Positions 7,133 to 35,819 of a DNA stretch of 41,724 nt are shown piece after piece. The stretch spans positions 1 to 41,724 of IMG/VR virus record IMGVR_UViG_3300018063_000025; one strand, 5' to 3'. Every line of letters starts with the position of its first letter. The stretch's first letter is position 1. This stretch comes from a virus. Under the pieces are notes generated by a model. That model worked only from the letters and a program-made list of their open reading frames with translations. It made no database searches and was not told the origin of the DNA. The translations under genes were made by a program, and so were the position numbers.

Positions 7133-7133
7133 A

Positions 7134-7643
7134 ATGGCGAAGCGGGTTTATACGATGGACACTAACACGCCGACGGCGACCGCCGACACGACAGCTTTGG
7201 TGAACGCCACTTATATAGGCGCTTTCAAAGGCGGCTCCGGCGCGCAGCGGACGGTCATCGATGAGATTTATCTCGGTGGCCAAGCGGCCGCGAGCACGCC
7301 GACCCTCATGCAGCTTGCCAGGGATTCGACGGTCGGAGTCGGGGCACAAAGTGGCGGTGACGATGCACCACTTGACCCGGCCACCGCTGCTTTGGCCGCT
7401 CCGGTGGGCGTGGGCAATTCTTTCGTCACGTCTGCGCCCCAGCGTGATGCCGCCGCAAAGTTGCTCCATCTTGATTTTAACGCTTTTGGCGGGATAGTAA
7501 GATGGAAGTCGCTTGCCGCTGATAGAAGCGATGCGCCGACGTTGCTTGGCAACACGGCCTCGTTCGGTGAAGCGTCGCTCTCTGCCTTTACTGGCGGTAC
7601 GCCCGGCGCGATGGGGGCACATGTCATTTACGAAACATTATAA
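7134..7643 (+). CDS. Putative virion protein, 169 aa, beta-rich
   Basis: Begins MAKRVYTMDTNTPTATADTT one base after the previous stop and ends FTGGTPGAMGAHVIYETL. It is rich in Thr, Ala, Gly and Ser with short hydrophobic strands, as in capsid-surface or tail-associated jelly-roll proteins. Tandem placement with the two following genes suggests a module. No family recognised with certainty. Confidence 0.6.
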   Translation: MAKRVYTMDTNTPTATADTTALVNATYIGAFKGGSGAQRTVIDEIYLGGQAAASTPTLMQLARDSTVGVGAQSGGDDAPLDPATAALAAPVGVGNSFVTSAPQRDAAAKLLHLDFNAFGGIVRWKSLAADRSDAPTLLGNTASFGEASLSAFTGGTPGAMGAHVIYETL

Positions 7644-7667
7644 ACCATTTTATATAGGAGGCGGTTT

Positions 7668-9442: not shown

Positions 9443-9444
9443 AA

Positions 9445-11094: not shown

Positions 11095-11276
11095 TGGCTG
11101 AATCGGCAGCGAAGGTATTGAGTCAGCAAAAAGGCCCCACGGCCACCGAGATCTTGGCCAAGGACTCGATGCTGTCGGGCAAGAAGCGTCTGGCCTTCAC
11201 CAATTACGCCGAAGGGGGCGGCAGGAAGACCTATGCCGACTGGCTCAAGGCCGGGGAGCCCGAGGTAGATAAATAA
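11094..11276 (+). CDS. Hypothetical protein, 60 aa
   Basis: Starts MAESAAKVLSQQKGPTATEI, with GGAGGAAG before a TGATG junction with the portal stop. Small, charged, Lys/Ala-rich; ends AGEPEVDK. The next gene starts at its stop codon. No family recognised; it sits where some podoviruses encode a small assembly factor. Confidence 0.6.
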   Translation: MAESAAKVLSQQKGPTATEILAKDSMLSGKKRLAFTNYAEGGGRKTYADWLKAGEPEVDK

Positions 11277-11572
11277 TGGGCGCGCTGGACGGCATCCGTA
11301 AGGTCGTATTCCGTAAGCGCGCGGCATACCGGGCCGTATTCAAGCCCGGGGGTGACGTGTCGCCGGGGACCCACATCGTGCTTACCGATTTGCGGCGCTT
11401 TTGCCGGGCGACTCGCTCCACGACCATGATTTCATTGGTCACCATGTCCGTTGACCCGCTTGCGAGCGCCCAGGCGGAAGGGCGGCGAGAAGTTTGGCTC
11501 CGCATCCAGAATATGTTGAACCTCGATGATCAAGATGTAGCCCGCTTGATCGACGATGGAGACGCCGAGTAG
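11276..11572 (+). CDS. Bbp19-like phage structural-region protein, 98 aa
   Basis: The ATG overlaps the preceding TAA by one base. The chain contains LTDLRRFCRATRST and AQAEGRREVWLRIQNMLNLD, matching my memory of the short Bbp19-type proteins found beside the capsid genes of BPP-1-like podoviruses (AxxEGxR...L pattern). Exact function is not known to me. The call is by pattern only. Confidence 0.5.
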   Translation: MGALDGIRKVVFRKRAAYRAVFKPGGDVSPGTHIVLTDLRRFCRATRSTTMISLVTMSVDPLASAQAEGRREVWLRIQNMLNLDDQDVARLIDDGDAE

Positions 11573-11594
11573 TTAACTTTTAATGGAGTAAATC

Positions 11595-12443
11595 ATGCCT
11601 GATATTAAGGTTGAAACTTCTCCGACTGCCGCTGCCGCTGCCGCGGTATCCGATCCGAATGTCCCATGGCATGCCGGGTTCGAGAACAAAGATGTTGCGG
11701 GCTGGGTCGCATCGTTCGGAGACGCGTACAAGACGCCCGAGTCGATGGCGGTCAAGGCTTACAACCTGGAGAAGCTTCTGGGTGCCGATAAGGCGGGCCG
11801 GGCGATCGTTCCACCCAAGGCCGATGCCAAGCCGGAAGAGATCACGGCTTTTTATCGAAAACATTTAGGTGCTCCGGAAAAGATCGATGGCTATCCGATC
11901 CCCAAGGAGCGCGCCGAGGACAAGAACTTCCAGGCATTCAGGGAATTCGCGCATTCCATCGGCATGCCCGCGTCCCAATACAATGCCATGGTGGCCTGGA
12001 CCAATGAGCAGGCGGCAAAGCGTGATCAGACCTTCGAGTCCGTGCAGGAAGCCCAGGCCAACAAGGAAATGGGCGAGGTCGTGGTCGAGTGGGGCACCGA
12101 TTATGACCAGAAGACCGAGCTAGGTCGCCGCGCGGCCCGGTCCTTGATCCCTCACGAGACGCCCGACGAGTTGGAAGAAATCCTGGGCACCATGGAGGGG
12201 GCGCTGGGCACCAAGTTCACGATGAATTTGTGGGCAGCCATCGGCGCGGGCATGGGCGAGCATGCCTTTGTCCAGGGAAGCGGGGGCGGTGGGGGCGGGG
12301 GCATGACGCCCGAGGCCGCGCGGCTGCGGATCAACGAGCTTAAAGGTGATAAGGAATGGGGCAAGAAATTCATGAACGGCGACACCGAAGCCCGGGCCGA
12401 GTGGGATAAGCTCCATAAGGTCGCGAATATCGTCCCGGCCTGA
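11595..12443 (+). CDS. Capsid scaffolding protein
   Basis: 282 residues, directly before the capsid gene (only the HNH insertion intervenes). It has an acidic, Ala-rich N-terminus, a mostly helical middle (FQAFREFAHSIGMPASQYNA, EQAAKRDQTFESVQEAQANK), a Gly run GSGGGGGGGM near residue 233 and a basic helical end (ELKGDKEWGKKFMNGD ... EWDKLHKVANIVPA). Scaffolds guide prohead assembly through such a C-terminal helix and then leave. GGAG precedes the ATG. Confidence 0.85.
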   Translation: MPDIKVETSPTAAAAAAVSDPNVPWHAGFENKDVAGWVASFGDAYKTPESMAVKAYNLEKLLGADKAGRAIVPPKADAKPEEITAFYRKHLGAPEKIDGYPIPKERAEDKNFQAFREFAHSIGMPASQYNAMVAWTNEQAAKRDQTFESVQEAQANKEMGEVVVEWGTDYDQKTELGRRAARSLIPHETPDELEEILGTMEGALGTKFTMNLWAAIGAGMGEHAFVQGSGGGGGGGMTPEAARLRINELKGDKEWGKKFMNGDTEARAEWDKLHKVANIVPA

Positions 12444-12450
12444 TGGGGGC

Positions 12451-12479
12451 TTGACACGGGCTCACGCCTGTGCTATGAT
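12451..12479 (+). promoter_or_regulatory. Sigma70 promoter before the HNH gene
   Basis: TTGACA (12451-12456), 17-base spacer, TATGAT (12474-12479): a near-consensus promoter. It shares 24 consecutive bases with the control-region promoter (12459-12482 vs 2886-2909) but lacks the upstream palindrome. It would supply extra transcription of the HNH and capsid genes. Confidence 0.85.
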
Positions 12480-12502
12480 CCGGGTCGCATACGACCGCGC
12501 CC

Positions 12503-12889
12503 ATGCCCATGATCAGACGACGCCAGAGCCAAATGACCGATGCCGAACGGTCTTTGGCCCTGGCTCGTAAGGCCAGATACTTTAAGACCCCAAAGGGTCG
12601 GGCGGCAAGGAATGGTGTTGTAAGAAAGGTTAAGGTACAAGTTTTTGATCATTACGGGCATAGGTGCGTGTGGTGTGGATTTGATGACATGAGGACTTTG
12701 ACCATTGATCACGTTAACCAAGATGGGCATAAGCATAGAATGCCATCTGGAAGACGGTACACTGGTTATCATCTTTATGGGTGGCTCAAGGCCAATGGGT
12801 GGCCAAAAGGATTTAGAACCTTGTGTCGTAATTGTCAGGCCATAGCGCATGACAATTATGAGAGAAAACAGGCACTCTTAGTTCAATAG
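12503..12889 (+). CDS. HNH homing-type endonuclease, 128 aa
   Basis: Basic N-terminus (MPMIRRRQSQMTDAERS), then the zinc-bound HNH fold: CVWCG, IDHVNQDG (the His/Asn catalytic pair), GYHLYGWLKANGWPKGF and CRNC. The gene is AT-richer than its neighbours and sits alone between scaffold and capsid, typical of a mobile free-standing endonuclease. Its closest relative here is the protein at 35355-35819. It starts about 20 bases after the predicted transcript start and has no clear ribosome site. Confidence 0.88.
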   Translation: MPMIRRRQSQMTDAERSLALARKARYFKTPKGRAARNGVVRKVKVQVFDHYGHRCVWCGFDDMRTLTIDHVNQDGHKHRMPSGRRYTGYHLYGWLKANGWPKGFRTLCRNCQAIAHDNYERKQALLVQ

Positions 12890-12902
12890 GACCTGTTTGA
12901 CG

Positions 12903-12987
12903 GCTCAGGAAAGACTGAGCACCGGCGGTGTAAGCCGCAAGTAGGGGTCCGGGCAACCGGGACACTCCAACGAAATGGTTAACATTT
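12903..12987 (+). promoter_or_regulatory. Structured leader before the capsid gene
   Basis: The 114-base gap holds four consecutive possible hairpins: GCTCAG/CTGAGC (12903-12920), GCGG/CCGC (12925-12938), GTCCGG-GCAA-CCGGGAC with one bulged G (12947-12963) and AAATG/CATTT (12973-12987). The GCAA loop is of the stable GNRA type. None is followed by a T-run. It could stabilise the capsid message or be RNA linked to the HNH gene; both are inference. Confidence 0.4.
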
Positions 12988-13003
12988 TGAAGGAGTAGCT
13001 GGA

Positions 13004-13894
13004 ATGTCTCAGCAGATCCCGACCCATTACGCTCAGATGTATGCTTCGACCATCGAGCTTTTGCTGCAACAGCGGGGGTCCAAGCTGCGGGATACGGTCA
13101 GCTTCCAGGGTATTCGCGGCGCGAAGGCCGCAACCCCGGTGGAGCAGATCGGGCCCGTGGCCGCAACCAAGCGCACCACGCGCTACCCGCCGCTCACCCC
13201 GGTCGATACCCCGCACGCGCGGCCCTGGGTCTTTCCTGCCGATTACGACTGGAATGACCTGATCGATTCCATCGACAAGCTGCGCACGGTCGTCGACCCG
13301 CAATCCTCGTACGCTCAGAATGGTACTTACGCCATGGGGCGGGCTCAAGATGACGAACTCATCCAGTCCTTCTTTGGCGACCGGAAGACGGGCGAGGATG
13401 GCGCAACTGTCACCACGTTCCCCGCCAGTCAGCAGGTCGCCGTCAATTTTGGCGCGGCCGGCAGCGTCGGATTGACCGTGGCGAAGCTTCGGGAAGCGCG
13501 GCGTCTCCTCATGGCCGCGGAAGTCGACTTCGAGGCGGATCCCCTTACTCTGGGGGTTACTGCCAAGCAGCACGACAATCTGCTCGCGGAAATGCAGGTC
13601 ATCAGCACGGATTTCAATGAAAAGCCGGTGCTGGTCGAGGGAATGGTCACCCGCTTCCTGGGGTTCAACTTCAAGCAGACGGAGCGTCTTCAGACCAACG
13701 CCTCCGCGTTCCGCCGCTGCCCGGCCTATGCCAAGTCGGGTGTGTGCCTGGGCATGTGGAACGATATCACGACGGACATTTCTCAACGGAAGGACCTCGC
13801 AGGATTGCCGTGGCAGGTTTACGTGTTCGGCACGTTCGGCGCGACCCGGAAGGAAGAGAAGAAGGTCGTCGAGATCATCTGCTCCGAAGTCTAA
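13004..13894 (+). CDS. Major capsid protein (BPP-1-like)
   Basis: 296 residues, preceded by a strong GAAGGAG site. The N-terminal MSQQIPTHYAQMYASTIELLLQQRGSKLRD, the KRTTRYPPLTPVDTPH segment and the WVFPADYDWNDLIDSIDKLR stretch resemble the HK97-fold shell proteins of the BPP-1 type; the C-terminal part carries FLGFNFKQTERL and VFGTFGATRKEEKKVVEI. It lies after the scaffold and before a probable cement protein, the usual order. Shell formation by many copies is consistent with the terminator downstream of the next gene. Confidence 0.85.
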   Translation: MSQQIPTHYAQMYASTIELLLQQRGSKLRDTVSFQGIRGAKAATPVEQIGPVAATKRTTRYPPLTPVDTPHARPWVFPADYDWNDLIDSIDKLRTVVDPQSSYAQNGTYAMGRAQDDELIQSFFGDRKTGEDGATVTTFPASQQVAVNFGAAGSVGLTVAKLREARRLLMAAEVDFEADPLTLGVTAKQHDNLLAEMQVISTDFNEKPVLVEGMVTRFLGFNFKQTERLQTNASAFRRCPAYAKSGVCLGMWNDITTDISQRKDLAGLPWQVYVFGTFGATRKEEKKVVEIICSEV

Positions 13895-13921
13895 TCCGGC
13901 TGACGCGAAAGGAGATACATC

Positions 13922-14428
13922 ATGGCAGTTGTAGCACTCAAAAGCACTCCGCTCACGAACGCCGACTCGACGCCAGTGAAGCTGAACCGTGCCGACGTGG
14001 CCCGGGCCCGGAGGCTTCATAATCGGGGCGTGGTCACGACCGGCGCTGCCGACTCCATCGGCTCGACGTACCGTTTCACCCGCATCAAATCCTCGGATAT
14101 GATTCTTTCTGTCCTGTTGGACAACGATGCGATCGCGACGGCCCCGACGATGGATATCGGCTTGTACAGGACGACCAGGGACGGTGGCGCGGTGGTCAAT
14201 GCGACCCTATTCGCGTCGGCGGTGGCATTGGCGGCGGCCCAGGCGTCGCTGAACGTGACGCGGGAATCTCTCGTCATCACGGTCGCCAACATGGAGAAGC
14301 GGGTATGGGAGCTTCTCGCGTTGACGGAAGATCCGTTGCTCGAGTACGACGTGACCGGCACCCTTGTCGCCGCCACCACGGCGGTCGGGTCGATCGCCGT
14401 TGCGGTGGATGTGGTCGGCGGAAGCTGA
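13922..14428 (+). CDS. Putative capsid cement/decoration protein, 168 aa
   Basis: An AAAGGAGATA site precedes the ATG. The chain is beta-rich (YRFTRIKSSDMILSVLLD, ATLFASAVALAAAQASL, LEYDVTGTLVAATTAVGSIAV) and shows no catalytic motif. In BPP-1 the gene next to the shell protein encodes a cement protein; same place and size here make that the best guess. It is transcribed with the capsid gene and both end at the terminator 14448-14482. Confidence 0.6.
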   Translation: MAVVALKSTPLTNADSTPVKLNRADVARARRLHNRGVVTTGAADSIGSTYRFTRIKSSDMILSVLLDNDAIATAPTMDIGLYRTTRDGGAVVNATLFASAVALAAAQASLNVTRESLVITVANMEKRVWELLALTEDPLLEYDVTGTLVAATTAVGSIAVAVDVVGGS

Positions 14429-14447
14429 TCGAAAGTGCGTAGTGATG

Positions 14448-14482
14448 CGGCCCCGGGTCGATTCCCGGGGCCGTTCTTTTTT
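14448..14482 (+). terminator. Intrinsic terminator after capsid and cement genes
   Basis: CGGCCCCGGG (14448-14457) and CCCGGGGCCG (14464-14473) make a perfect 10-bp stem with a 6-base loop, followed by TTCTTTTTT. This is a textbook Rho-independent terminator. No promoter follows, so it must leak; it would lower expression of the tail genes relative to the shell genes. Confidence 0.92.
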
Positions 14483-14496
14483 GAAGGAGAGCAGCA

Positions 14497-14691
14497 ATGG
14501 CGACCCGACGTTATGGTTTGTCCCGTGCCGAAACCGATCAGCAAGTGACCGAGGCCGTCGGCGCGGCGATCGTTACCGATTCCATGGAGTTCACGTTCGA
14601 TCTGGCCGTGAGCTTGACCCGCGAGGACGTGTTGCTGGCCCTGGAGAAGTTCAAGTCTCACATCCTTAAGGGCAGCTTTCCGCCGGCCTGA
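14497..14691 (+). CDS. Hypothetical protein, 64 aa
   Basis: GAAGGAGAGCAGCA lies before the ATG; the ribosome site partly follows the terminator T-run. Chain MATRRYGLSRAETDQQVTEA ... LTREDVLLALEKFKSHILKG, short beta then helix. Not recognised; it stands between the cement and gp11-like genes. Confidence 0.6.
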   Translation: MATRRYGLSRAETDQQVTEAVGAAIVTDSMEFTFDLAVSLTREDVLLALEKFKSHILKGSFPPA

Positions 14692-14702
14692 TGGAGTAGG
14701 CC

Positions 14703-15302
14703 GTGGCCTCTGAAGTAGATATTGCTAACCTTGCGCTTACGCTCCTCGGCGAGGAGCGGATCATGGCGCTGTCCGATGACATAAAGCCTGCACGCGAGGC
14801 CGCTGCTGTTTTCGCTTTGGCCCGTGACTCGATGCAGGGGGCCTGGACCTGGAGCTTCACGAAGAAGCGTTCGGTGTTGCCCAAGCTGTCGTCCACGCCC
14901 GTCGGGCCTTATAGCCTCGAATTTCAACTCCCCAACGAGGCCCTGCGGATCATTCAAGTTGGTCAACATTACGTCGGGGTGGATTTGACCAATTACCGGG
15001 GATTCCCGGTTGAGGAATTTTCGATCGAGGGGCGTCGCATCCTGACCAATATCAGTGATCCCCTTGACCTGCTGTTTTGCCAGCGGGTAACGGACACCAC
15101 GCAATTCCCTTCCACGTTCATTACCGCGTTTGCGGGCGAATTGGCGGCGATGCTGGCGGAGCCTCTCACCCAATCCGATACCAAGCGTGACCGGGCCGAG
15201 AAATACCGGGACCGGCAAATAAAGTTGGCGATCAGGGCGAATGCCATCGAGCTATCGCCGGTATTGTTGGCGGACGACAGTTGGATCTTGTCGAGGCGAT
15301 GA
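14703..15302 (+). CDS. Tail tubular protein A (T7 gp11-like adaptor)
   Basis: 199 residues (T7 gp11 is 196). Start at GTG 14703 behind GGAG. Diagnostic pattern: EVDIANLALTLLGEERI at the N-terminus, FALARDSMQGAWTWSFTKKR (the WxW/F motif), FQLPNEALRII and a late helix LAAMLAEPLTQSDTKRDRAE. It bridges portal and nozzle. Ends next to the gp12-like gene. Confidence 0.9.
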   Translation: MASEVDIANLALTLLGEERIMALSDDIKPAREAAAVFALARDSMQGAWTWSFTKKRSVLPKLSSTPVGPYSLEFQLPNEALRIIQVGQHYVGVDLTNYRGFPVEEFSIEGRRILTNISDPLDLLFCQRVTDTTQFPSTFITAFAGELAAMLAEPLTQSDTKRDRAEKYRDRQIKLAIRANAIELSPVLLADDSWILSRR

Positions 15303-17864
15303 GTGAGCAAAGCCAGCCCCATTATAACCTCCTGCAATTCGGGGGAGTTTTCCCCGCTCCTGGCCGGGCGGACGGATATAAAGTATTGGGGCAACGCGTG
15401 CCGCCGGCTTCGTAATTTCATCCCCATGCCGCAGGGCCCGGGTCGCCGCCGGCCGGGCACGCGGTTCGTAGCAGAAGTCAAGAATTCGGCCCATCGCACG
15501 TGGCTGGCATCGTTCGAGTTCAGTGCTGATCAAGCCTATGTCCTTGAAATCGGGGACCGATACATCCGCTTCTACGCCAGTCATGGTGTGGTGCAAACTT
15601 CACCGGGCAGTGGCATTCCATTCGAGGTTTCTACCCCATGGCTGATTGACGATTTGACGGGGGTTGATGGCACCCTGCAACTTCGCGTGGTGCAATCGGG
15701 CGATGTGATGTATCTCGTGCATAATGATGTGCAGCCCCAGAAATTGGAACGGCTGGCGGCGGCATTGTTCACCCTCACTCCACTTGATTTAGAAGGCGGG
15801 CCATTCAAGGATGTGGACCTGACGCAAACGATCACGGTTTGGGCGAGCGCCGCAACCGGTAACATCACGCTCAATGCGTCTTCATCCATCTTTAACGATG
15901 CCCGGATGGTGGGCATGTTGTTCCTGCTCGAGCAGCGCGCGGCGGATGCCGTGCTCGCGTGGGAGGCGGGGAAGGCGGTAACTGTCAACGATATCCGCCA
16001 ATCGGATGGCAAGAATTATAAAGCCCTGCAGACCGGGACCACCGGCACGATCAAGCCCACGCATACGTCCGGGGCAAAGTTTGATGGCGCGGCAGTTCAA
16101 TGGGAATTTCAGGACCCGGGTTATGGCTGGTGCAAGATCACGGATATCACGGGCCTTACCGCCACCGCTACCGTCCTGTCGCGTTTTCCGGCCCAGGCCG
16201 TGGGCGCGCCGCAAGCTTCCACTCGCTGGGCATTTGGGGCATTTTCAAATGTTGTGGTGCCCATTGTTGGATTGTCCGAGGAAAATGGCCCCGGGCTGGG
16301 GTGGCCGGATTCCGTGACGTTTTTCCGTGAGCGGTTGGTACTTGCCAAAGATCGGTCGATCTATACATCTAAGAGCGGAGATTTTGAAAACTTTAACCGG
16401 AAGGATGATGGCGGACAGATCGTGGCCGATGGCGCGATCATCGTCGATACGACTTCTGACCGGGCAGACCGGATCGAGTGGATCTCGCCCACCGATAAGG
16501 GCTTGTTGGTCGGAACGGCGGGCGATGAGCAAGTGCTTACCGAGATCACTACGTCCGAGCCATTTGGCCCAAAGAATGCATTCTTGAGGAAGCAGACCGG
16601 GCATGGATCGCGGCATGTACAACCGGTCCGGGTCGGGGATGGAGTGATATTTGTCCAAAAGGCGGGGCGCAAGATTCGTGACATTCGCTTCCAATTCGAG
16701 CGCGATGCGCAGAGCACCACGGACCTGACGGTCCTCGCCGAACATGTCCCTAAGGGCGGGGTTATCGACATGATTTATCAGCAGGAGCCCGATTCCGTGG
16801 TTTGGATGGCGCGGAAGGATGGGGCATTGCTGGGATTCACGCTCAATCGTGAGCAGGACGTTCGCGGTTGGCACCCGCATCGAATCGGGGGCTTTGCGGA
16901 CGTGGCCAAGAAGCAATTCGCCAAGGTCGAGGCCATTACCGTGGTCCCGTCGCCCGATGGCGAGCGCGATGATCTTTGGATGATCGTCCAACGCACAGTC
17001 AACGGGGTGACGCGGCGTTATGTCGAATTCATGGAGAAATACCATGAAGAGGGGGACGATCAGCAGGATGCCTTCTACGTGGACTCGGGCCTAACGCTCG
17101 ATAACCTTCAGACCATGACATTGCAACCCGGCACCGGGGCCAATGTCGAGGATGCCGTTAACGTGGTGTTCATTGCCGGGGCGTCGGTATTTGCGGGCGG
17201 GGACGTCGGGAAATTTATTCATTTCCGGCACACTACTATCAGCATCACTGGAAAGATCACCTATAAGCTGGCCGTGGCCGAGATCACGGCCTTTGATTCG
17301 GTGGTGCAGGTGAAGTGTACCATTAATGAACCGTTCCCCAACCTGGATCTCATCCTGTCGAGCGGGTGGCGGATGACCGTAACCGTGATATCGGGCCTTG
17401 GGCATCTGGCCGGGGAAACCGTGGCGATATGGGCGGACGGGGCGGTGCAGCCATCGAAGGTGGTCAGTGGCGGTGGAACGATTACGTTTTCTACCCCGGC
17501 CAGTAAAGCGCAGGTCGGGTTGGGCGGGTCAGCCGTCATGCAACCCATGCCGATAGATGCGGGGGCGGAGGATGGAGGCACGGCGCAGGGCAAGACGATG
17601 CGGGCCCATAAGGTTACGATCCGGTTCAATGAAACCATCGGCGTTAAATTCGGGACCGATGAGGATAAGAAATTGGATGAAATAACGTATCGGAAACCCA
17701 CGGACCTGATGGATATCGCGGTACCGTTGTTCACGGGTGATAAGCTGGTGTCGTGGCCGGAGGGGTATGAGGGCCAGTTGCTAATCACCATTGTGCAGGA
17801 TCAGCCTGCCCCGTGCACGGTGGTTGCCATCATGCCGCACATGGTTACTTATGGTGCTCGATGA
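15303..17864 (+). CDS. Tail tubular protein B (T7 gp12-like nozzle)
   Basis: 853 residues, close to T7 gp12 (794). GTG start right after the gp11-like stop. The opening SCNSGEFSPLLAGRTDIKYW...ACRRLRNFIPMPQGPGRRRPGTRF is the hallmark of this family, followed by FSADQAYVLEIGDRYIRFY and, in the middle, FRERLVLAKDRSIYTSKSGDFENF. It forms the nozzle of the short tail through which DNA exits. Overlap ATGA with the next gene. Confidence 0.92.
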   Translation: MSKASPIITSCNSGEFSPLLAGRTDIKYWGNACRRLRNFIPMPQGPGRRRPGTRFVAEVKNSAHRTWLASFEFSADQAYVLEIGDRYIRFYASHGVVQTSPGSGIPFEVSTPWLIDDLTGVDGTLQLRVVQSGDVMYLVHNDVQPQKLERLAAALFTLTPLDLEGGPFKDVDLTQTITVWASAATGNITLNASSSIFNDARMVGMLFLLEQRAADAVLAWEAGKAVTVNDIRQSDGKNYKALQTGTTGTIKPTHTSGAKFDGAAVQWEFQDPGYGWCKITDITGLTATATVLSRFPAQAVGAPQASTRWAFGAFSNVVVPIVGLSEENGPGLGWPDSVTFFRERLVLAKDRSIYTSKSGDFENFNRKDDGGQIVADGAIIVDTTSDRADRIEWISPTDKGLLVGTAGDEQVLTEITTSEPFGPKNAFLRKQTGHGSRHVQPVRVGDGVIFVQKAGRKIRDIRFQFERDAQSTTDLTVLAEHVPKGGVIDMIYQQEPDSVVWMARKDGALLGFTLNREQDVRGWHPHRIGGFADVAKKQFAKVEAITVVPSPDGERDDLWMIVQRTVNGVTRRYVEFMEKYHEEGDDQQDAFYVDSGLTLDNLQTMTLQPGTGANVEDAVNVVFIAGASVFAGGDVGKFIHFRHTTISITGKITYKLAVAEITAFDSVVQVKCTINEPFPNLDLILSSGWRMTVTVISGLGHLAGETVAIWADGAVQPSKVVSGGGTITFSTPASKAQVGLGGSAVMQPMPIDAGAEDGGTAQGKTMRAHKVTIRFNETIGVKFGTDEDKKLDEITYRKPTDLMDIAVPLFTGDKLVSWPEGYEGQLLITIVQDQPAPCTVVAIMPHMVTYGAR

Positions 17865-18358
17865 AGTCACTGCATAGACAACGCGGCTGGTTCTGGATTA
17901 TTCCACTTGCGATGGCGGCGGTGAGTGCTATTGCCGGCGCCAAGGAAAAGAAGAAAAAGGCGAAGGCCGAAGCCGCCGCGATGCAATATGATGCATTGCA
18001 GCGTCAGCAGGAATCCGAGGCCACGTTAGCGACGTACAATCTCCGTGAGGAATCGCAGCGGCGGCGGGCGCGGCGGGTGCAGGGCAACTTGCGCGCCGGC
18101 TTGGCGGAATCGGGCATCGGGTATGGGCGGGGCACCGCGCTCGATGTCGAAATGGAATCGGCGGTGGAGTCGGAAATGGATGCTCTGAACATCCGGTACG
18201 AGGGCAATTTGAAGGCGCGCGGGTTGTTGGCCGAATCCGAGCAACAATTTGCGGCGCGGCGGGAACATCTACGTGGGGCCAGGGCTTCCGAACGTGCGGG
18301 GTACTTGAGTGCCGCCGGCACGGTGCTCGGGGGCGTTGGACAATATTTGGGCAGTTAG
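17861..18358 (+). CDS. Internal virion protein, small (gp14-like position)
   Basis: ATG at 17861 overlaps the gp12-like stop (ATGA); 165 residues. A short hydrophobic segment (FWIIPLAMAAVSAIAGA) near the N-terminus is followed by a Lys-rich patch and a long Arg/Glu/Ala helix (EESQRRRARRVQGNLRAG, NIRYEGNLKARGLLAESEQQ) and a Gly-rich membrane-like end. T7 gp14 has the same plan and forms the outer-membrane pore during ejection. Called by order and architecture. Confidence 0.75.
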   Translation: MKSLHRQRGWFWIIPLAMAAVSAIAGAKEKKKKAKAEAAAMQYDALQRQQESEATLATYNLREESQRRRARRVQGNLRAGLAESGIGYGRGTALDVEMESAVESEMDALNIRYEGNLKARGLLAESEQQFAARREHLRGARASERAGYLSAAGTVLGGVGQYLGS

Positions 18359-18400
18359 GGCGGGGGCGGCGGGGCCTTGGCCGGATCGACGGGATAGAAG

Positions 18401-20017
18401 ATGGCGCGCATCACCGAGTACACTCAGCAAACGCAGACCCCGGATATTCCACGTAGACGGGATGCCCCTGTCTTATATTCACCGGGGGTCCTGGCACAAG
18501 CCGCCCCGGATCTTACTCGGGGCGCCGCCATGCTGGCGGAAGGGCTCGAGAGGCGCGAGGAGCGGGAAGCCGCCGCATGGGCCGCGCAGGAAATGTCCGG
18601 GGCGCGTTTGCATTGGACCGTGCAAATGGTCGAGCGCCAGAGCGCGGCTGAGCCGGGTGCTCCCGATTTTACAGCGGGGGTGATGAAAGATTTTGACGCG
18701 TACGCCGAGGAACGCCTCAAAAAGGCTCCGTCCAAGCGGGCGCAGATGGCGGTCGGAGGCAAGTTTCTACAGTACAAATCTACGCTGGCCGAGGGGGCAG
18801 TCGGATTTGAGGCCAAGGCCCGGGTCGATTTGCAAGAGGACCAGTTCAAAGTTGGCATGAACAATGTGGCCAACCTGATGCAAGCTGACCCCAATCAATA
18901 TCGGGATGCCCTGGCCGAGCAACTTTCTGCCATTGACGCGGCCCCCATTCCCCCGGTGCGGCGCTCGGCCCTTCGTGAAACCGCGGTGAATAAGGTATCC
19001 GAGGCCGCTGTCTGGGCGCAAATCCAGAAGAGCCCGGGCCTGTTTCTGCAGAGCATCGGCATGACGCCGCAAGAAGGCGGCAAGCAGCGGATCGCCCCCG
19101 ATATGAAGGGCGTGACGGGGAACGCGGCGTTTGACGCCCTGCTCCCGGAGAAGCGGATTAAGTTCGTAGAGACGGCGTTCGCGGTCAAGGCTAATTTGGA
19201 CCGGGACGAAGAGAAATCTACCAAAGCACGGGCGGATCAGCTTTCTTCGGACGGGTTGAAATTGGCATGGGACATGGAGAAGGAAGGCAAGTTGTCCCGT
19301 ACCTATGTGGAAATGCTCAGGCCCATGGTCAGTCAGGGCGAGTATCACACGCTGTTGAACGCGCTGGAACGTTCACAGCGCGGCGAGCCGGAGCGCGATG
19401 ATCCGGAGGCCGTGCGCCAGTTGCTTAATACTTTGTACGGGCCGACCCCGGAAGCGACGCACGGCCTTGCAATGCGATTCAGTCAATCGAGGCTGATTAA
19501 GAATGACACGCTCACGTCCATGCGCAGCCATGCGCGCTCGATCTCGCGGACCGAAGGGCCCAAGTCCGATTACGAACGGGGGCGTGCTTATGTCCATGAT
19601 TCGCTTGATCCGGGGCCGATGGTTCCTGATCCGGCGGGCCGTCGCCGTTTGGCCGAGGCTCTGGATACTTTCGACCGTTGGCACAACGCCCAGGCTCGTA
19701 CCGATAAGGAAATCGAGACGCGGGCAAAAGAAGTCGTGGATCAGTATGTGTTTATCGATTTCCGCGAATCCGTGCTGATGTTGCCGCAGCCCCGGTATTC
19801 GACGGTTCGCCGTGATTTCAGTGATTTTCAAGCCACGGGCAAGGAAATTTCGCGTGCGATCGACCATGCCAAGGACCGACGCGATAAGGGCGAGATCACG
19901 CCGGGGGATTATAATGAAGAAATGCGAATCCTGAACCGGTGGATTAAGACTTATGAAGAGGCCAAGAGACAAAATGCCGAAGCGGAAGCCAGAAAAGCCG
20001 AGCGGAAGCGCCGCTAA
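18401..20017 (+). CDS. Internal virion protein, middle (gp15-like position)
   Basis: 538 residues, almost entirely helical and polar, starting MARITEYTQQTQTPDIPRRR. Features such as DFTAGVMKDFDAYAEERLKKA and LAEQLSAIDAAPIPPVRRSALRETAVNKVSEAA are typical of tail-channel internal proteins that line the DNA path into the cell. It precedes the giant internal protein and overlaps it. T7 gp15 is 747 residues, so this one is shorter. Confidence 0.7.
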   Translation: MARITEYTQQTQTPDIPRRRDAPVLYSPGVLAQAAPDLTRGAAMLAEGLERREEREAAAWAAQEMSGARLHWTVQMVERQSAAEPGAPDFTAGVMKDFDAYAEERLKKAPSKRAQMAVGGKFLQYKSTLAEGAVGFEAKARVDLQEDQFKVGMNNVANLMQADPNQYRDALAEQLSAIDAAPIPPVRRSALRETAVNKVSEAAVWAQIQKSPGLFLQSIGMTPQEGGKQRIAPDMKGVTGNAAFDALLPEKRIKFVETAFAVKANLDRDEEKSTKARADQLSSDGLKLAWDMEKEGKLSRTYVEMLRPMVSQGEYHTLLNALERSQRGEPERDDPEAVRQLLNTLYGPTPEATHGLAMRFSQSRLIKNDTLTSMRSHARSISRTEGPKSDYERGRAYVHDSLDPGPMVPDPAGRRRLAEALDTFDRWHNAQARTDKEIETRAKEVVDQYVFIDFRESVLMLPQPRYSTVRRDFSDFQATGKEISRAIDHAKDRRDKGEITPGDYNEEMRILNRWIKTYEEAKRQNAEAEARKAERKRR

Positions 20018-28130: not shown

Positions 28131-28706
28131 CTAACGGCCGTTGGGGCCCGGGGCCATGGTTTCCCGGGCATGCCGCAGGATATCCTCGCCCGTGATCGAA
28201 TCGAGCCACGGCGTGGAATACTGGGTCAGGATCACCGGGCTCACTAACAAGAATTTATCGCGCGCGAAATTAATGTAATCGGTAATCGGGATGTAGGCCA
28301 TGAAGTTCTGGAGCGGGTGAACTACCCCCAGCTTGTAGAAGACCAGGAAGCCACACCATGAATTGCCGTTGGTCGCGTCGTGCCGGATACGCAGCCATTC
28401 CACCTGCTGACGGCGCAGATATTTCAATTTAAAGGTCTCGCCCCCCGACTTGAACTCCGTATACTTTAGCTCGAGCCAGTACTCGTGCCCTTCGTGTGCG
28501 ACGCTCAGATCCGGGACCCCGAGGGTGCGGGGCGCCTCATCAAGCACTTGCACGTGAGCGCCGGTCCCGAACAAGCGCTTGATGACCTCGCCCTGGAAAG
28601 ACAGTTCATTAAAGATGGACCCCCGGCTCACCGACGCGGGCGCCATGGCCCCTGCCGGCTTGGATTGCCCATTGAACGTGCGATCTTTCCACTTGCCGGT
28701 GCTCAT
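28131..28706 (-). CDS. PD-(D/E)XK nuclease (VRR-NUC-like), 191 aa
   Basis: Start MSTGKWKD at 28706, ATGA-coupled to the tiny membrane gene. The core is GVPDLSVAHEGHEYWLELKY, i.e. PD followed by ELK, and RRQQVEWL, a Q-xxx-W helix as in VRR-NUC and Holliday-junction-resolving nucleases. The remaining C-terminal half is a mixed fold. Likely resolves branched or replicating DNA intermediates. It ends the leftward arm. Confidence 0.7.
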   Translation of the reverse strand: MSTGKWKDRTFNGQSKPAGAMAPASVSRGSIFNELSFQGEVIKRLFGTGAHVQVLDEAPRTLGVPDLSVAHEGHEYWLELKYTEFKSGGETFKLKYLRRQQVEWLRIRHDATNGNSWCGFLVFYKLGVVHPLQNFMAYIPITDYINFARDKFLLVSPVILTQYSTPWLDSITGEDILRHARETMAPGPNGR

Positions 28707-28798
28707 CGGTATTTGCTCCATAGTTCAGCTATCTTCCATGCCATGGCGACGATCACGGCGATTATCACCATCCATGGCCCCGGTCGGTTGATTCTCAT
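28703..28798 (-). CDS. Tiny membrane protein, 31 aa, coupled to datZ
   Basis: Too short for routine gene finding. ATG at 28798 overlaps the datZ stop by ATGA, and its own stop overlaps the nuclease ATG by ATGA. Sequence starts MRINRPGPWMVIIAVIV and ends AELWSKYR: one transmembrane helix with a basic C-terminus. The double overlap is strong support; function unknown. Confidence 0.65.
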   Translation of the reverse strand: MRINRPGPWMVIIAVIVAMAWKIAELWSKYR

Positions 28799-29301
28799 TC
28801 CTGTACTTCCATGGCCCGTAGCACTTCGGCCACCGGCTCGGCCCACTCTTCCCCATACTCCGCCAGCATGGCCATGACCTCATCGGCATAGAGTTGGCGC
28901 ACCTTGGCAGAGTGCACCCCAACCCAGCGGTGATGAATCCAGCCAAGGGCCTCTAGCTTATCGGCCATTTTAACGAACCGGGCCAATTCGATCGACGGCT
29001 CCACGAAGAAGGCATGGTGAAACGGCATCACGGAGGGTCTGGGGAGCATGTTGGCCTTGGCCGGTGAGGGTATATCCCCGGTCCTAAACTCATCGGCATC
29101 ATGGAACATGCAGTATACCAGAAGCTGAAGCGCCCCTTCCCGGTTTCCCGGAGTGCCGGCAAGACCGATAATTCGATCGTACAGCATCAGCGCAATGAGC
29201 ATTACCCCATACTGGTGGTCCGCAAGGGTTTGCTCGCCGACGACTTGGATCGTGTGCCATCTGCGGACATGGCGTGATAGAAAGATCTCTTTCCAGTTCA
29301 T
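28795..29301 (-). CDS. datZ: HD-domain dATP phosphohydrolase, DatZ-like
   Basis: 168 residues from ATG 29301, which follows GGAGGAACG; the open frame to 29697 is upstream shadow. The HD site is visible: RRWHT (His16), ADHQ (His29), FHDADEF (His67-Asp68), GDIPSPAK (75-82) and ADKLEA (Asp114), the YfbR-type layout. In Z-phages this enzyme (DatZ) hydrolyses dATP so that adenine is depleted and only Z enters DNA. Its place beside purZ in an ATGA-linked operon supports that over a general 5'-nucleotidase. Confidence 0.8.
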   Translation of the reverse strand: MNWKEIFLSRHVRRWHTIQVVGEQTLADHQYGVMLIALMLYDRIIGLAGTPGNREGALQLLVYCMFHDADEFRTGDIPSPAKANMLPRPSVMPFHHAFFVEPSIELARFVKMADKLEALGWIHHRWVGVHSAKVRQLYADEVMAMLAEYGEEWAEPVAEVLRAMEVQE

Positions 29302-29552
29302 CGTTCCTCCAGCGGTGTTTGATAGTCCAGGCCATACTGCTCCAGGCACGCGACGCCTAAGGCAATTACCTGCACGATCTCGTTTAACGGGTGGCTGCGA
29401 TTCACGCTCCCGTAACGGATGCCATCTTCGGCCTCGACCATTTCGCGCCGCATGATTCTCAGCCATTCCTTGGCCGTATGCATTTGTACATACATGCCTT
29501 GGTGCGCGCGCTCGCGCACGATCTCGTTGAAAATCTCTTCTCTCGTAACCAT
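29298..29552 (-). CDS. Short MazG-like protein, candidate MazZ, 84 aa
   Basis: ATG 29552 follows GAGGAG. The chain has MazG-like helices with acidic motifs REMVEAED (36-43) and NEIVQVIALGVACLE (57-71), resembling the metal-binding EExxE and ExxD motifs of all-alpha NTP pyrophosphatases. It is shorter than usual MazG proteins and far shorter than full MazZ. In Z-phages MazZ converts dGTP to dGMP, the substrate of PurZ. Position between datZ and purZ is the main support; activity is not certain. Confidence 0.5.
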   Translation of the reverse strand: MVTREEIFNEIVRERAHQGMYVQMHTAKEWLRIMRREMVEAEDGIRYGSVNRSHPLNEIVQVIALGVACLEQYGLDYQTPLEER

Positions 29553-29554
29553 GG

Positions 29555-30574
29555 CTAAATCTCCTCAATATGATCTTCCCTCGGTCCCCAGCCCGTTCGG
29601 CCCACATGCGCGTATTTATTAATAATGGCGCACAGGCGCAAGGTTTCATTCCTGGGCACATAATTACAGAAGTTAAGGAAAACTTGATCCACCCCATTCA
29701 TTCGGATCGCCTGCCTGATCTGCTCCTCAGAAAACGAGAACAGCCGCCGGGGTAGCTTGGACACGGTTGTCAGCTCCGGCTCGACGCCGATGGATGACCA
29801 TTCGATCTCTTCTTGATCCCAATACCCTGGCCCGGACCAGCCTACCTGTTTGCCGTCTTTAAAGCGATTGGCCACCCGGATCGGAAGCGTGCGGGCAACG
29901 CCATAGACCATAAAATCAAAGTTGATTGGGATTGCGCAATCGCTCAGGATCTGATGCACCGAGCAGTCGCGCCATGTGCAATAAGGATAGATACCATTGT
30001 TGATGCCCAGCCCGAATCCCTGTGCGGCTTCGACCTGGATGAAATTGGCCCTATCTATCAGGTCATTGTACTCCTCGACCGATACCACCGATCCTTCTAG
30101 CAGGGTCCGCTGCAACCGGAGCCGGGCTATGTTACCAAGATCCCCGGTTGCCCGGCGCATCTTCTCCATCAATGCCTCCCCGCCCCCTTTCATCACGCCC
30201 CCGACCCGGTAAGCGTATTGGGAAACCAGATGCCGATGCTCGTCGTCCACGATCGCCGCATGCTCATGAATATAGAGTTCCACCCCGCCGTCGCTCAATC
30301 GGTCCAGCGCTCCCATTTCGGAGAGTAATAGATCCGGGTCAATGCATGATCCCGGCCCGAGCAGCACCCGCTTTACCGAATCGGACACGAGGCCCGACGG
30401 CAGGGCAATACTGACATATTTGTTGCCGAGGGCATCCACGAATGTGTGCCCGGCATTCGGGGCCCAGGCGGTCACGATGGTATCGGGCTTGAATTTCTTG
30501 GCCAGATACCCGGCCAGTAGCCCCTTGCCCTCTGACCCGAATTGCAGTCCCATTATTACGCATCCAGCTTTCAT
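29555..30574 (-). CDS. purZ: PurZ, succinyl-amino-deoxyadenylate synthetase
   Basis: 339 residues, clearly homologous to adenylosuccinate synthetase (PurA) but about 90 shorter. The P-loop reads MGLQFGSEGKG where PurA has GxQWGDEGKG: the catalytic Asp is replaced by Ser14, the reported mark of PurZ, which uses dGMP instead of IMP. NAGHT with the conserved His follows. Start at 30574 forms ATGA with the polymerase stop; the longer frame is rejected. The product gives dZMP after adenylosuccinate lyase and kinases of the host. Confidence 0.93.
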   Translation of the reverse strand: MKAGCVIMGLQFGSEGKGLLAGYLAKKFKPDTIVTAWAPNAGHTFVDALGNKYVSIALPSGLVSDSVKRVLLGPGSCIDPDLLLSEMGALDRLSDGGVELYIHEHAAIVDDEHRHLVSQYAYRVGGVMKGGGEALMEKMRRATGDLGNIARLRLQRTLLEGSVVSVEEYNDLIDRANFIQVEAAQGFGLGINNGIYPYCTWRDCSVHQILSDCAIPINFDFMVYGVARTLPIRVANRFKDGKQVGWSGPGYWDQEEIEWSSIGVEPELTTVSKLPRRLFSFSEEQIRQAIRMNGVDQVFLNFCNYVPRNETLRLCAIINKYAHVGRTGWGPREDHIEEI

Positions 30575-32430
30575 GATAGACTCGCTCCAGCCCAATGATC
30601 AGCGATCCTGACGTCACTTAAGATGGGCACCCGGCACGAGATCGCGGCGTGGGGGCCAAAGTCCTCGAGAATATACTTAATTGCACGCGGCACATGCTTC
30701 TTACCGCGCGGCACCGAGAAATCTATCTCGTCGTGCACCGACAACAGCATGCGAAATCCTTGTTTCTTGTGGGTGGCATGAAGTTCAATCATCTTCTGCT
30801 TCATGCAATCGGCGCTGGTGCCCTGGAATACTAGGCCCCCCGCCTTATATGCATGCGCGGGGCTGGGAAATCTGATCCGACGCCCAAGCATAGTTTTAAC
30901 GTATCCCCGACCCCGCGCAATGGACGCTGCTTGGTCCAAAAGCTGCCTGATACCAGGAATCGCGGAGTGATATTGTTCAAATTTAGCCTTGGCCTCAGGC
31001 CCCGCCACGAGCCATTCCCGTCCGGATCGGTCATGCCTGATGCTGAATTCAAGATCCATTTCCTCTGCCAGTTTGCCTTCGCCCATACCGAATACCAGGC
31101 CCAAATTAATTTGCTTCGCGTTGGCAGTGTTGCCAGCATATTTGGCGTCACGAGGAAGACCGGTGATGGCCGCAACCATCGCATGGAAATCGGTGGCCGG
31201 ATCGTCACGATACTTGGCGATGAGCGCCGGGTCATTAACATAATGGGCGAACCAACGGAATTCAAATTGTTCCCAATCTGCACAACACCAGTCTTGCCCC
31301 TCGTCCGGTACGAAACACGCACGCGTAATGAGCGCGATTTCCTTATCACGCTTCGGGATCTGTTGCAACGCCGGATCGTTGACTGAAAATCGCCCCGTAC
31401 CGGTCCCCAATTCGTTATCTCCGCGTGTTTGATTGTAATTCGGATGAACGTAGCCATTTACCTCGTGTCCCAGAATGTGATCCTTGAGGAAACTGCTCGC
31501 CTTCACCAAGGTCCGCACGTCGATCACGGCCTGGGCGCGCTTATCCCCCCGGTCCGCCATCAGCTTGAGTTTGATCTTGCTGAACGACCCCTCGCCCCCC
31601 GGCGTATCGTCCAGCAGCACCCCGTTATCCGCCCACCACCTGTCATCCTCGCCCTTCTTGACGTTGAACAATTTCCGCATCTGCGGCGGGGAGTTGGCGT
31701 TAAACTCCTGCCCCACCATCGCGTTCAGCGCGCTCTGTGCTCGCTGTATTCTGTCCTTGGTCAGGGCCAGTTCACGATGGGTGCGATCCAGGTCCACCCG
31801 GACCCCGCCCCATTCAAGGTCAACCAAGACCGGAGTGAGCGCTCGCTCCACCGCCCACACCCTTTCAAGCTCCTGTTCCGCAATTTGCTTCTCCTGCCAC
31901 AACCACAATTTGATAGCCAGTTGCGGGTCTTCGATTGCGTACTTACGAGCCAGCCGCTCGGGCGCGCGGTGAAGGTTCCCCATCTGGGCCTTGCGGGTCG
32001 GCTCGCCCCCGAACAGCTTGGCCAGATCACCGTATATGTCTACTTTGCCCTGGCCCACATACTTGCGGGCAAGCGCATCGAGTGAGAACGATGGCTCATG
32101 CTCATTAATCAATGCCGCCCGCACCATCGTGCATTCCATCCTATCGGCGGGGAACTCGATTCCTTTGCAACGGGCAAATAGGGCATCGAACTTGAGGTTG
32201 TGTCCCATGACCCGCCGGCATTGAGGCAGTAGCTTAATGAGCCACGGCACGATGTTGGAATTGGTGCGGACGTCCCAGTACCCGCTCGCCCATTCCTTTG
32301 TATCTGGGTCGTGCGCAGCAACTGCAACCCCGAACAGTCTGTCCTTTTTCCAGGATAGGCCCGTGGTTTCCACGTCCACCGACACTAGAGGATAGTCGGG
32401 CAGACGGGATAGATTGAGTTCCTTAATCAT
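30571..32430 (-). CDS. dpoZ: PolA-family DNA polymerase, DpoZ-like
   Basis: 619 residues, with 3'-5' exonuclease then polymerase. Exonuclease: VDVETTG (18-24), GHNLKFDALF (76-85), IEDPQLA (166-172). Polymerase: motif A CCADWEQFEFR (382-392, usual DYSQIELR), O-helix segment AKQINLGLVFGMG (438-450) and motif C VHDE (565-568). The coupling to purZ by ATGA, and to the helicase above by ATGA, is consistent with the dZTP-preferring DpoZ of Z-phages. Assignment as DpoZ relies on context; from motifs alone it is a family A polymerase. Confidence 0.88.
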   Translation of the reverse strand: MIKELNLSRLPDYPLVSVDVETTGLSWKKDRLFGVAVAAHDPDTKEWASGYWDVRTNSNIVPWLIKLLPQCRRVMGHNLKFDALFARCKGIEFPADRMECTMVRAALINEHEPSFSLDALARKYVGQGKVDIYGDLAKLFGGEPTRKAQMGNLHRAPERLARKYAIEDPQLAIKLWLWQEKQIAEQELERVWAVERALTPVLVDLEWGGVRVDLDRTHRELALTKDRIQRAQSALNAMVGQEFNANSPPQMRKLFNVKKGEDDRWWADNGVLLDDTPGGEGSFSKIKLKLMADRGDKRAQAVIDVRTLVKASSFLKDHILGHEVNGYVHPNYNQTRGDNELGTGTGRFSVNDPALQQIPKRDKEIALITRACFVPDEGQDWCCADWEQFEFRWFAHYVNDPALIAKYRDDPATDFHAMVAAITGLPRDAKYAGNTANAKQINLGLVFGMGEGKLAEEMDLEFSIRHDRSGREWLVAGPEAKAKFEQYHSAIPGIRQLLDQAASIARGRGYVKTMLGRRIRFPSPAHAYKAGGLVFQGTSADCMKQKMIELHATHKKQGFRMLLSVHDEIDFSVPRGKKHVPRAIKYILEDFGPHAAISCRVPILSDVRIADHWAGASLS

Positions 32431-33683
32431 TTTACTATGGGATTGTCGCCCGATAGGATCAGCCGTTGTTTCGCCCTCGTTAAACCGACGTACTGTACCC
32501 TCCGCTCGGCGTCCGGGTTGAGCGTCAACTGCTCCAGCACCCGGGCGGGCAGGTTCAGGTCCAGAATCACGGTGTCATGCTCCCGACCCTTGGCCTGATG
32601 GATCGTGGACACGATGTGTTTGATCGGCAAGCTAAGGTCCGCTTGCTCATAAAAATCGCGCCATGCCGGGGGCACTTCATTGATGATGATCCGCCCCGCT
32701 TTCAAATCCCGTGCGATATGGCTGGTCCACGGGCTCGGTCCGCCCCATACCTCATAGGGGGTCATGTCCTGATTAAGCATGCGCTTGATCTCGGCCACCC
32801 GGAATCTGTCGCGGGCCAGAATCAACGCCCCCTCGGGGGCCTCAGCCAGAATATCCAATGCATCAAATTCGCCCCACCGCACAACTTCACCATCCTCGGG
32901 GCGGGGCAGCCATGGTTTCAAGATTCGTAATTTAACACCGGTCATTGTGTCACTTGCCAATGTGGCAATTGTTCTGGGCACCCGATACGATTGCTCGAGC
33001 TTGATGTACTTGACGCCACCGTCATGGAACTTATGCATCCCGTGGGGGTCCGCGCCGCTCCATTCATAAATCGCCTGATCGTCGTCCCCGGCCACGAATA
33101 CTTCCTCCACGCCGGAATGTAGCAGCTTATGGAAAAATTTCCATTGCAAGGGGGTACAGTCCTGCGCTTCATCCAGGCACACCGTGGTATAAGGATGCCC
33201 CGCCCCCATGATTTTAGTCGCCCGCTCCAACATATCATCAAAGTCTACGTAGCCGTACGCCTTTTTCCACCGGCAGTAGGCTTCGATAAAGTACTCGTAG
33301 CGGGGCCGGGTGCCCGGTGCGCCTATTTCATCATACGCCTGATTGATGCTAATTATCTTGTTGCGGGCAAACGAAAAGCACGCCAGATACTCGTCGCCCT
33401 CTTGTTGTTCGTCATCGGTCTTGGTGCGAATCGGCACCCCGGTGGTGGCAGAAAGTACCTGCATCTTTATCGGGTCCGCCGCGACCGAGGCCCGGCTTAG
33501 GTTCAGGGCCTTAAATGCCAGTGAATGAAGGGTACTGGCATCGGCCTGGTTGGAGCGGAACGCAATCTCTTGCGCCGCGGCCTTGGTGTAGGACAGGCAT
33601 AGGGCATGGGCCCCCCGCACCCTGTCCATGAGTTCGGTCGTCTTGCCGGTGCCCGGGGGTCCGTAGATGACGGTTGATTTCAT
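32427..33683 (-). CDS. SF1 (UvrD/Rep-type) DNA helicase, 418 aa
   Basis: All signature motifs are visible: YGPPGTGKTT (7-16), DEAQD (171-175), GDDDQAIYEWSGA (199-211), LEQSYRVPRTI, a late VSTIHQAKGREHDTVIL and YVGLTRAKQRL. At 418 residues it is a compact member, about half of UvrD, like small phage repair helicases. It unwinds DNA with the polymerase. Start at 33683 follows GAGGAG and the terminator at 33698-33736. Confidence 0.92.
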   Translation of the reverse strand: MKSTVIYGPPGTGKTTELMDRVRGAHALCLSYTKAAAQEIAFRSNQADASTLHSLAFKALNLSRASVAADPIKMQVLSATTGVPIRTKTDDEQQEGDEYLACFSFARNKIISINQAYDEIGAPGTRPRYEYFIEAYCRWKKAYGYVDFDDMLERATKIMGAGHPYTTVCLDEAQDCTPLQWKFFHKLLHSGVEEVFVAGDDDQAIYEWSGADPHGMHKFHDGGVKYIKLEQSYRVPRTIATLASDTMTGVKLRILKPWLPRPEDGEVVRWGEFDALDILAEAPEGALILARDRFRVAEIKRMLNQDMTPYEVWGGPSPWTSHIARDLKAGRIIINEVPPAWRDFYEQADLSLPIKHIVSTIHQAKGREHDTVILDLNLPARVLEQLTLNPDAERRVQYVGLTRAKQRLILSGDNPIVK

Positions 33684-35354: not shown

Positions 35355-35819
35355 CTACTGTCCATACTGCAGCGCACCATGTATCCGCCACGCCCTGACC
35401 TGGCAATTTGCACACAGTGTTCTGAACATCGGTGGAAAATTATTTTTGACGATCCATCGATACAACACATAGCCAGACATTCGTCGTTTTCCTTTCCTAC
35501 ACTTATACTTATAACCATCTTGATTAATGTGATCCATACTAAGTACCATGGGATCACGTTCACCGCACATTTTACAACGTTTACCGTATTTTTCAAACAC
35601 TAATTTTCGGTCTTTACTCGCCCTCTTTAAACGACTCGCTCTACGACTTGCTCTAGTACTGGCTATTAATTCTTCTTTACTCTTCCTAGGCGGACGTGGT
35701 TTTGGAACATAACTACGTTTACGATATTCCCTCATTTTTTCCCTATAATGCTCCTTTCTTTGCTCCATGGTAAGCTTTAAGCGATGCCGTCTCCTCCATT
35801 CTATCATCTTATTCATCAT
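35355..35819 (-). CDS. HNH endonuclease, 154 aa, relative of the gene at 12503
   Basis: A very basic N-terminus with Lys/Arg-rich repeats (MMNKMIEWRRRHRLKLTMEQ), then CKMCGERD, MDHINQDG, GYVLYRWIVKNNFPPMF and CANC, motif for motif like the protein at 12503-12889. The DNA is visibly richer in A/T than the flanks. It inserts between helicase and promoter, each intact, as a free-standing homing endonuclease would. Confidence 0.88.
   Translation of the reverse strand: MMNKMIEWRRRHRLKLTMEQRKEHYREKMREYRKRSYVPKPRPPRKSKEELIASTRASRRASRLKRASKDRKLVFEKYGKRCKMCGERDPMVLSMDHINQDGYKYKCRKGKRRMSGYVLYRWIVKNNFPPMFRTLCANCQVRAWRIHGALQYGQ

Follow-up and report, generated by a model that had tools for sequence, protein, structure and literature searches.

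The 41,724-base IMG/VR virus record IMGVR_UViG_3300018063_000025, the whole of which is here termed the window, carries on its minus strand what is probably (about 0.82) a functional cassette of the PurZ/DpoZ-2 class for replicating a Z-genome (2-aminoadenine), made up of genes for the polymerase DpoZ, the synthetase PurZ, an 84-amino-acid MazG-like protein and the phosphohydrolase DatZ. Replacement of adenine (A) by 2-aminoadenine (Z) in the DNA of this phage is likely, because its PurZ falls within the PurZ clade, its DpoZ scores past the family cut-off and has the steric-gate Phe, and its DatZ has kept the catalytic residues. A cassette of this kind was what the original prediction, made from the sequence alone, had proposed, and the placement of PurZ and DpoZ inside their own clades, together with the intact DatZ residues, bears it out.

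PurZ, a 2-amino-deoxyadenylosuccinate synthetase (29555..30574, minus strand), has NF038379 as by far its best family (E=4e-85), and among solved structures S-2L PurZ (7odx, E=2e-70) and phiVC8 PurZ (3e-61) match it best, with PurA (6e-24) a long way behind. Ser14, in the motif QFGSEGKG, stands for the catalytic Asp (Asp13 of PurA), as had originally been read, and Ser occupies this column in all 108 Z-cluster sequences that have it. Most dGMP/ATP contacts are kept: along with S14, residues N40, H43, R141, Q185, R233, V234 and N304 match the S-2L and phiVC8 contacts (contacts for PurZ from PMC8342488; those compared for PurZ, DatZ and DpoZ together from PMC8342488, PMC8065100 and PMC8599892). 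In a FastTree phylogeny that takes the PurA sequences of Salmonella and P. horikoshii as its outgroup, the window protein lies deep inside the PurZ clade, beside those of the survey loci L002, L021 and L028 (supports here and below are FastTree local supports, with several deep nodes weak). This position, within PurZ and outside PurA, was the one on which the original prediction had staked its claim, and it rules out an ordinary PurA identity. The notion of a PurA-type auxiliary gene in a phage with normal DNA is accordingly left with next to no probability: E15 does give the P-loop a PurA-like look (GSEGKG vs GDEGKG in PurA), but Ser-Glu in the P-loop is also seen in PurZ0 relatives and other PurZ-like genes, and both the Ser in place of the catalytic Asp and the adjacent DpoZ and DatZ genes argue the other way.

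The idea that GSEGKG is unique to this phage was likewise rejected. A first survey had returned only GSTGKG for DatZ-linked PurZ, a bias from its GSTGKG search pattern; a codon scan found GSEGKG in about 70 viral contigs, and thus E15 is not special by itself. Many of these roughly 70 contigs with GSEGKG PurZ-like synthetases (L099-L172) are without a DatZ or MazZ match, and several of the synthetases branch near PurZ0 or the lineage of Ochrobactrum phage OH.

The polymerase (30571..32430, minus strand) is a phiVC8-like family A DNA polymerase with a 3'-5' exonuclease. It matches NF038380, the family of aminoadenine-incorporating DpoZ, with 694 bits against a cut-off of 500 (E=1e-208), and its closest solved structure is the phiVC8 DpoZ (7pbk, E=4e-123). 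The exonuclease triad D19/E21/D82 is present, as are the steric-gate Phe447 and the clade residues L443 and G532 (Leu455 and Gly548 in phiVC8 numbering); in the nearest non-Z phage polymerases the steric-gate position is Tyr. The tree of this polymerase with DpoZ sequences, a check suggested at the outset, places it inside the DpoZ clade and apart from the non-Z phage polymerases, represented by three from phages not listed as carrying PurZ. Elsewhere in the survey, Thr or Ser replaces Phe/Tyr at the steric gate in L117, L118, L189 and L012, whose polymerases form a clade belonging to PurZ phages of the MazZ-2 type, Ochrobactrum phage OH among them.

DatZ (28795..29301, minus strand) is an HD phosphohydrolase matching phrog_7076, "dATP triphosphohydrolase", at E=3e-15. 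The family matches of DpoZ, PurZ and DatZ all lie well outside what chance would give, and the initial labels of DatZ-type HD phosphohydrolase and family A polymerase both stand. Its closest solved structure is S-2L DatZ (6zpa, E=1.7e-6), all of whose metal and phosphate ligands are kept (R14, H29, H67, D68, E71, D76, K82, K111 and D114).

Several observations weigh against a fully conventional Z-cassette and have to be set beside this evidence. The phage is known from a metagenomic contig alone, with no host assigned. The PurZ score of 285.6 bits is just below the curated NF038379 cut-off of 300 bits, though this cut-off is a naming threshold and not a biological feature. Val127 occupies the dGMP-pocket position of Thr132 (S-2L numbering), where 159 of the 162 sequences carry Thr, and Thr17 of DatZ lies at the Ile22 gate of S-2L, where Ile is found in 87 of 100 sequences and Thr in three. 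In the 84-residue protein, Q61 takes the place of the catalytic Asp, the counterpart of the guanine-contacting D60 is absent and there is no clear R83; nor did its model yield a significant fold match (Foldseek E>0.001).

The PurZ and DatZ residues bring up the alternative that, in the lineage of the window and the locus L002 (IMG/VR 3300038408_000098), these two enzymes act on other nucleotides, with Z being partial or the purine a different one. The PurZ of the window has V127, G126, E15 and S272 where T, S, T and T are usual. Val at the Thr132 position is confined to the window and L002 (2/162), which also share Gly131 and Ser276 (S-2L numbering), each found in few other sequences, and the gate Thr of DatZ; among the loci with the same kind of MazG-like protein, the combination of the PurZ GGV motif with the Thr gate is shared with the window by L002 only. 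Position 22 excludes 2-amino purines, and specificity is relaxed in the I22A mutant of S-2L DatZ (PMC8065100). These changes are also old and kept under selection: between the window and L002 identity is 59-61%, and the proportion of nonsynonymous differences in purZ, mazG and datZ (pN 0.25-0.29) is well below that of synonymous ones (pS 0.64-0.71), from which it follows that the three genes have been maintained by purifying selection. Weighing on the other side, PurZ keeps Ser14, V234, N304 and the remaining dGMP/ATP contacts, the DpoZ is of the standard kind, with its F gate, and DatZ position 22 is variable in other Z-clusters (M, L, V, T and N). A shift in specificity is judged improbable. 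Improbable too is a concerted retuning of the cassette in this lineage, wherein an ExxQ MazG of the third type would supply the substrate while the PurZ residues (E15 in the window; G126, V127 and S272) and DatZ T17 would together alter which purine is made and which excluded; were it true, Z would be only partial in the virion DNA or another purine would be there in its stead, and DpoZ would have to provide the selectivity. The active-site changes in PurZ and DatZ may be either neutral tuning or a real shift.

The remaining cassette gene (29298..29552, minus strand) encodes the 84-residue protein, which occupies the mazZ slot and is described here as a third type ("MazZ-3") based on its position, alignments, same-slot homologues and an AlphaFold model. 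The expectation of a small MazG-like protein thus held as far as its presence in the slot goes; "MazG-like" is nonetheless the one weakly supported label of the cassette, with no Pfam or NCBIfam family behind it. Searches of Pfam, NCBIfam, PHROGs and the PDB sequences recovered no significant named family; phrog_2831 (function unknown) matched homologues of the protein, and the window protein itself had a weak PHROGs match to a family without an assigned function. The MazZ types given in PMC8342488 and PMC12884076 are MazZ-1/DUF550, MazZ-2 and DUF5664 only. The MazZ-1 (DUF550) profile gave no significant match: E37, E40 and E58 align with the MazZ-1 set E35, E38, E50, D53, I56 and D60, but Q61 falls at D53 and Ala at both I56 and D60. 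To MazZ-2, defined by ExxE...ExxD and R83, there is weak profile similarity, with the fourth ligand a Gln in all nine Z-cluster members of the type. Neither MazZ-1 nor MazZ-2 was found encoded elsewhere in the window.

The same protein type lies between purZ and datZ in the window and in L002, L019, L020, L021, L028, L033, L178 and L192, which also have the nearest PurZ and DpoZ sequences. Six of these nine loci have a DpoZ sequence long enough to enter the tree (the window, L019, L020, L028, L033 and L192), and they form one DpoZ clade with a support of 0.998. Invariant in the type are an ER..Q near the N-terminus, a W, ExxE and ExxQ, so that every member has Gln in place of the fourth acidic ligand. 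In sequence, this third protein type of the mazZ slot is not detectably homologous to MazZ-1 or MazZ-2.

Whether the protein supplies dGMP is where the strongest of the alternatives enters: the cassette might make Z while the 84-residue protein is a general phage helical protein with another role, dGMP coming from host pools or another enzyme. The Gln in place of the metal-ligand Asp family-wide, the missing D60 and R83 counterparts and the want of a convincing Pfam or NCBIfam match all speak for this. The AlphaFold model is confident (predicted local distance difference test score of 93) and consists of three helices, but its structural matches are weak, with helical hairpins of ribosomal proteins interspersed: the MazG/HisE entries 2q5z, 5ie9, 7ody, 2yxh, 7yh5 and 7bgm recur among them, as do by name iMazG, Bacillus MazG, S-2L MazZ, M. 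tuberculosis MazG and HISN2, but at VIA Z 5-6.4 they are tied with ribosomal and other unrelated helical proteins, and the model is compatible with a MazG fold without proving it. Moreover, relatives with ExxQ are encoded in ten phage records, of 20 to 100 kb, that contain no PurZ at all. Yet the type sits in exactly the MazZ place in nine Z-clusters, in the window with no MazZ-1 or MazZ-2 to do the work instead, and hhalign sets E37, E40 and E58 in register with the catalytic Glu residues of MazZ-2 at a score of 18.1, which exceeds all 40 of 40 column shuffles and compares with 20.9 for MazZ-1 vs MazZ-2. One stronger hhalign result was discarded as circular, since the profile compared included the window protein. 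On balance, an unrelated role for the protein can be seen as a serious though minority possibility, and its position makes a contribution to dGMP supply moderately probable. The PurZ0 phage Hiyaa, too, has an ExxQ MazG-like gene (gp72), at a distance of about 3 kb from the PurZ-like one, and a MazG tree over 83 columns separates most Z-linked copies from the rest, though weakly supported. The simplest history would be one in which a general phage family was recruited into the mazZ slot.

Turning to the row as a whole, the helicase-DpoZ-PurZ-MazG-like-DatZ-peptide-nuclease order is intact, free of internal stops and entirely on the minus strand. ATGA overlaps join helicase to DpoZ, DpoZ to PurZ, MazG to DatZ, DatZ to the peptide and the peptide to the nuclease, whereas PurZ and MazG are separated by TAG, then cc, then ATG; the contiguous row with ATGA at each junction except one is therefore as first described. 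The coupled chain extends past the four cassette genes, upstream to a UvrD/PcrA-like helicase (32427..33683; PF00580, E=2e-22) and downstream to a 31-residue, single-helix, hydrophobic, transmembrane-like peptide (28703..28798, sequence MRINRPGPWMVIIAVIVAMAWKIAELWSKYR) and to a nuclease/helicase-associated protein (28131..28706). The latter matches phrog_2165 at E=2e-8, is VRR-NUC-like by position and motifs, and has no Pfam match. The interval originally drawn around the cassette, 28131-32430, does contain it, and also takes in this nuclease-like gene (28706-28131), which had gone unmentioned. PADLOC returned nothing for three of the cassette genes, and in the phage collection no nucleotide-level relatives were found for the cassette or for positions 1-20000 of the window.

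The coupled row with its minimal MazG had been put forward as setting this phage apart, and here the evidence points the other way. The purZ-mazZ-datZ arrangement is the published "Z-cluster", in which mazZ is reported always between the other two (PMC8342488). The loci were surveyed across viral contigs with PurZ, DatZ, DpoZ and MazZ profiles, which were needed because scans with a single whole PurZ or MazG sequence were too insensitive (nothing or one locus). All 85 surveyed loci with the four genes on one strand have the order DpoZ-PurZ-Maz-DatZ, and in four, one of which is the window, there is neither an inserted gene nor a sizeable gap. Burkholderia phage Bm1 (PP183292) has the four genes and a downstream "DNA helicase"/nuclease gene, its annotation resembling that of the family which comes next in the window, contiguous and in the same order as the window; its PurZ and DpoZ are 40% and 38% identical to those of the window, but its MazG, of 111 residues, fits the MazZ-1 profile and its DatZ gate is Met. 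The podoviruses Vibrio phage phiVC8 and Alteromonas phage ZP6 have PurZ, MazG and DatZ in a row and a DpoZ, with mazZ-slot proteins of 86 and 85 residues, respectively; they differ in a primase- or integrase-annotated gene between DpoZ and PurZ and in a MazG of the MazZ-2 type (ExxD), with PurZ about 41% identical to that of the window, and ZP6 has, like the window, a "DNA helicase" or nuclease gene downstream of DatZ. The closest isolate by PurZ (44% identity), Acinetobacter phage SH-Ab 15497, shares helicase-DpoZ-PurZ-MazG-DatZ, but has a gene for a single-stranded DNA-binding protein between DpoZ and PurZ and a 385-residue MazG that fuses dGTP_diPhyd_N and dATP-dGTP_PPHyd; a PcrA/UvrD-like helicase upstream of DpoZ is found in this phage and in PMBT28. 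Cyanophage S-2L, whose triad is experimentally proven (PMC8342488), has the overlapping order PurZ-MazZ-DatZ, but lacks DpoZ (a PrimPol is used) and has MazZ-1, a DatZ gate of Ile22 and T132 in PurZ. Given the fixed order, the published Z-cluster and small MazG proteins at this position in other phages, there is nothing out of the ordinary, for a Z-phage, in the cassette itself. The claimed novelty of the row was thus mostly mistaken, and what is new, namely, a MazG that is neither MazZ-1 nor MazZ-2, the PurZ Val and the DatZ Thr, was what the original prediction missed.

Read as a pathway, the cassette would operate as follows. The MazG-like enzyme would strip pyrophosphate from dGTP to yield dGMP, which PurZ would condense with aspartate to dSMP; host PurB and kinases would carry dSMP on to dZTP; DatZ would remove dATP; and DpoZ would prefer dZTP opposite T, so that most adenine would be replaced. 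The identities, order, coupling and placement of the genes and the conservation of catalytic residues in PurZ, DatZ and DpoZ are direct results, whereas all enzyme activities and the base composition are what we infer from them. Of the steps, that of MazG is the least secure, as the third type has no significant sequence similarity to the characterized MazZ-1 and MazZ-2. The PurB-like adenylosuccinate lyase step is usually credited to the host; Streptomyces phage Hiyaa, of the PurZ0 class (L174, 7482-8855), encodes a PurB-like adenylosuccinate lyase of its own.

The virion genes (a head-tail connector, tail proteins and a 1373-residue internal virion protein) are those of a podovirus, and the module that they make up is HTVC010P-like. 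Its capsid protein is closest (52%) to that of a spring-water podovirus record, in which no PurZ, DatZ or MazZ match was found, and then to Pelagibacter HTVC010P-type phages. Among loci with the third MazG type, L021, L028, L192 and L178 have in their records a capsid protein 74-78% identical to that of the window, whereas those of L019, L020 and L033 gave no match to it; thus, Z module and capsid are not invariably found together. The L178 locus (PurZ 57%) sits in a contig binned to an uncultured bacterial metagenome-assembled genome, the bin holding the 78% identical capsid protein, which is a possible host clue. Elsewhere in the window, two promoter-like repeats on the plus strand (2878-2906 and 12451-12479; TTGAC[T/A]..GGCTCACGCCTGTGCTATGAT) have -35/-10 hexamers 17 nt apart, with zero copies expected by chance. 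Two related small open reading frames, one in the virion module (12503-12889, plus strand) and one in the replication operon (35355-35819, minus strand), share Cys pairs and a DH(V/I)NQDG motif and are HNH-homing-endonuclease-like, with no Pfam HNH match. Two further frames near opposite contig ends (816-1253 and 40112-40960, both minus strand) have a similar C-terminal domain, and the first 4 kb of the window have a GC content of 0.65-0.68, clearly above the rest.

Nature offers no clearer example of a DNA base replaced in full than the Z-genome phages, and the composition of a minimal Z-cluster matters both for understanding base replacement and for moving the cluster between organisms. The survey shows that many uncultured viruses have a Z-cluster and that its order is strongly fixed. 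Within this fixed order, the Val of PurZ and the Thr of DatZ are natural variants at positions that structures have singled out for specificity. With a third MazZ type in a supported DpoZ clade, the convergence already published for enzymes of the nucleotide pool would reach further; the type also poses the sharp question of whether or not an ExxQ MazG hydrolyzes dGTP.

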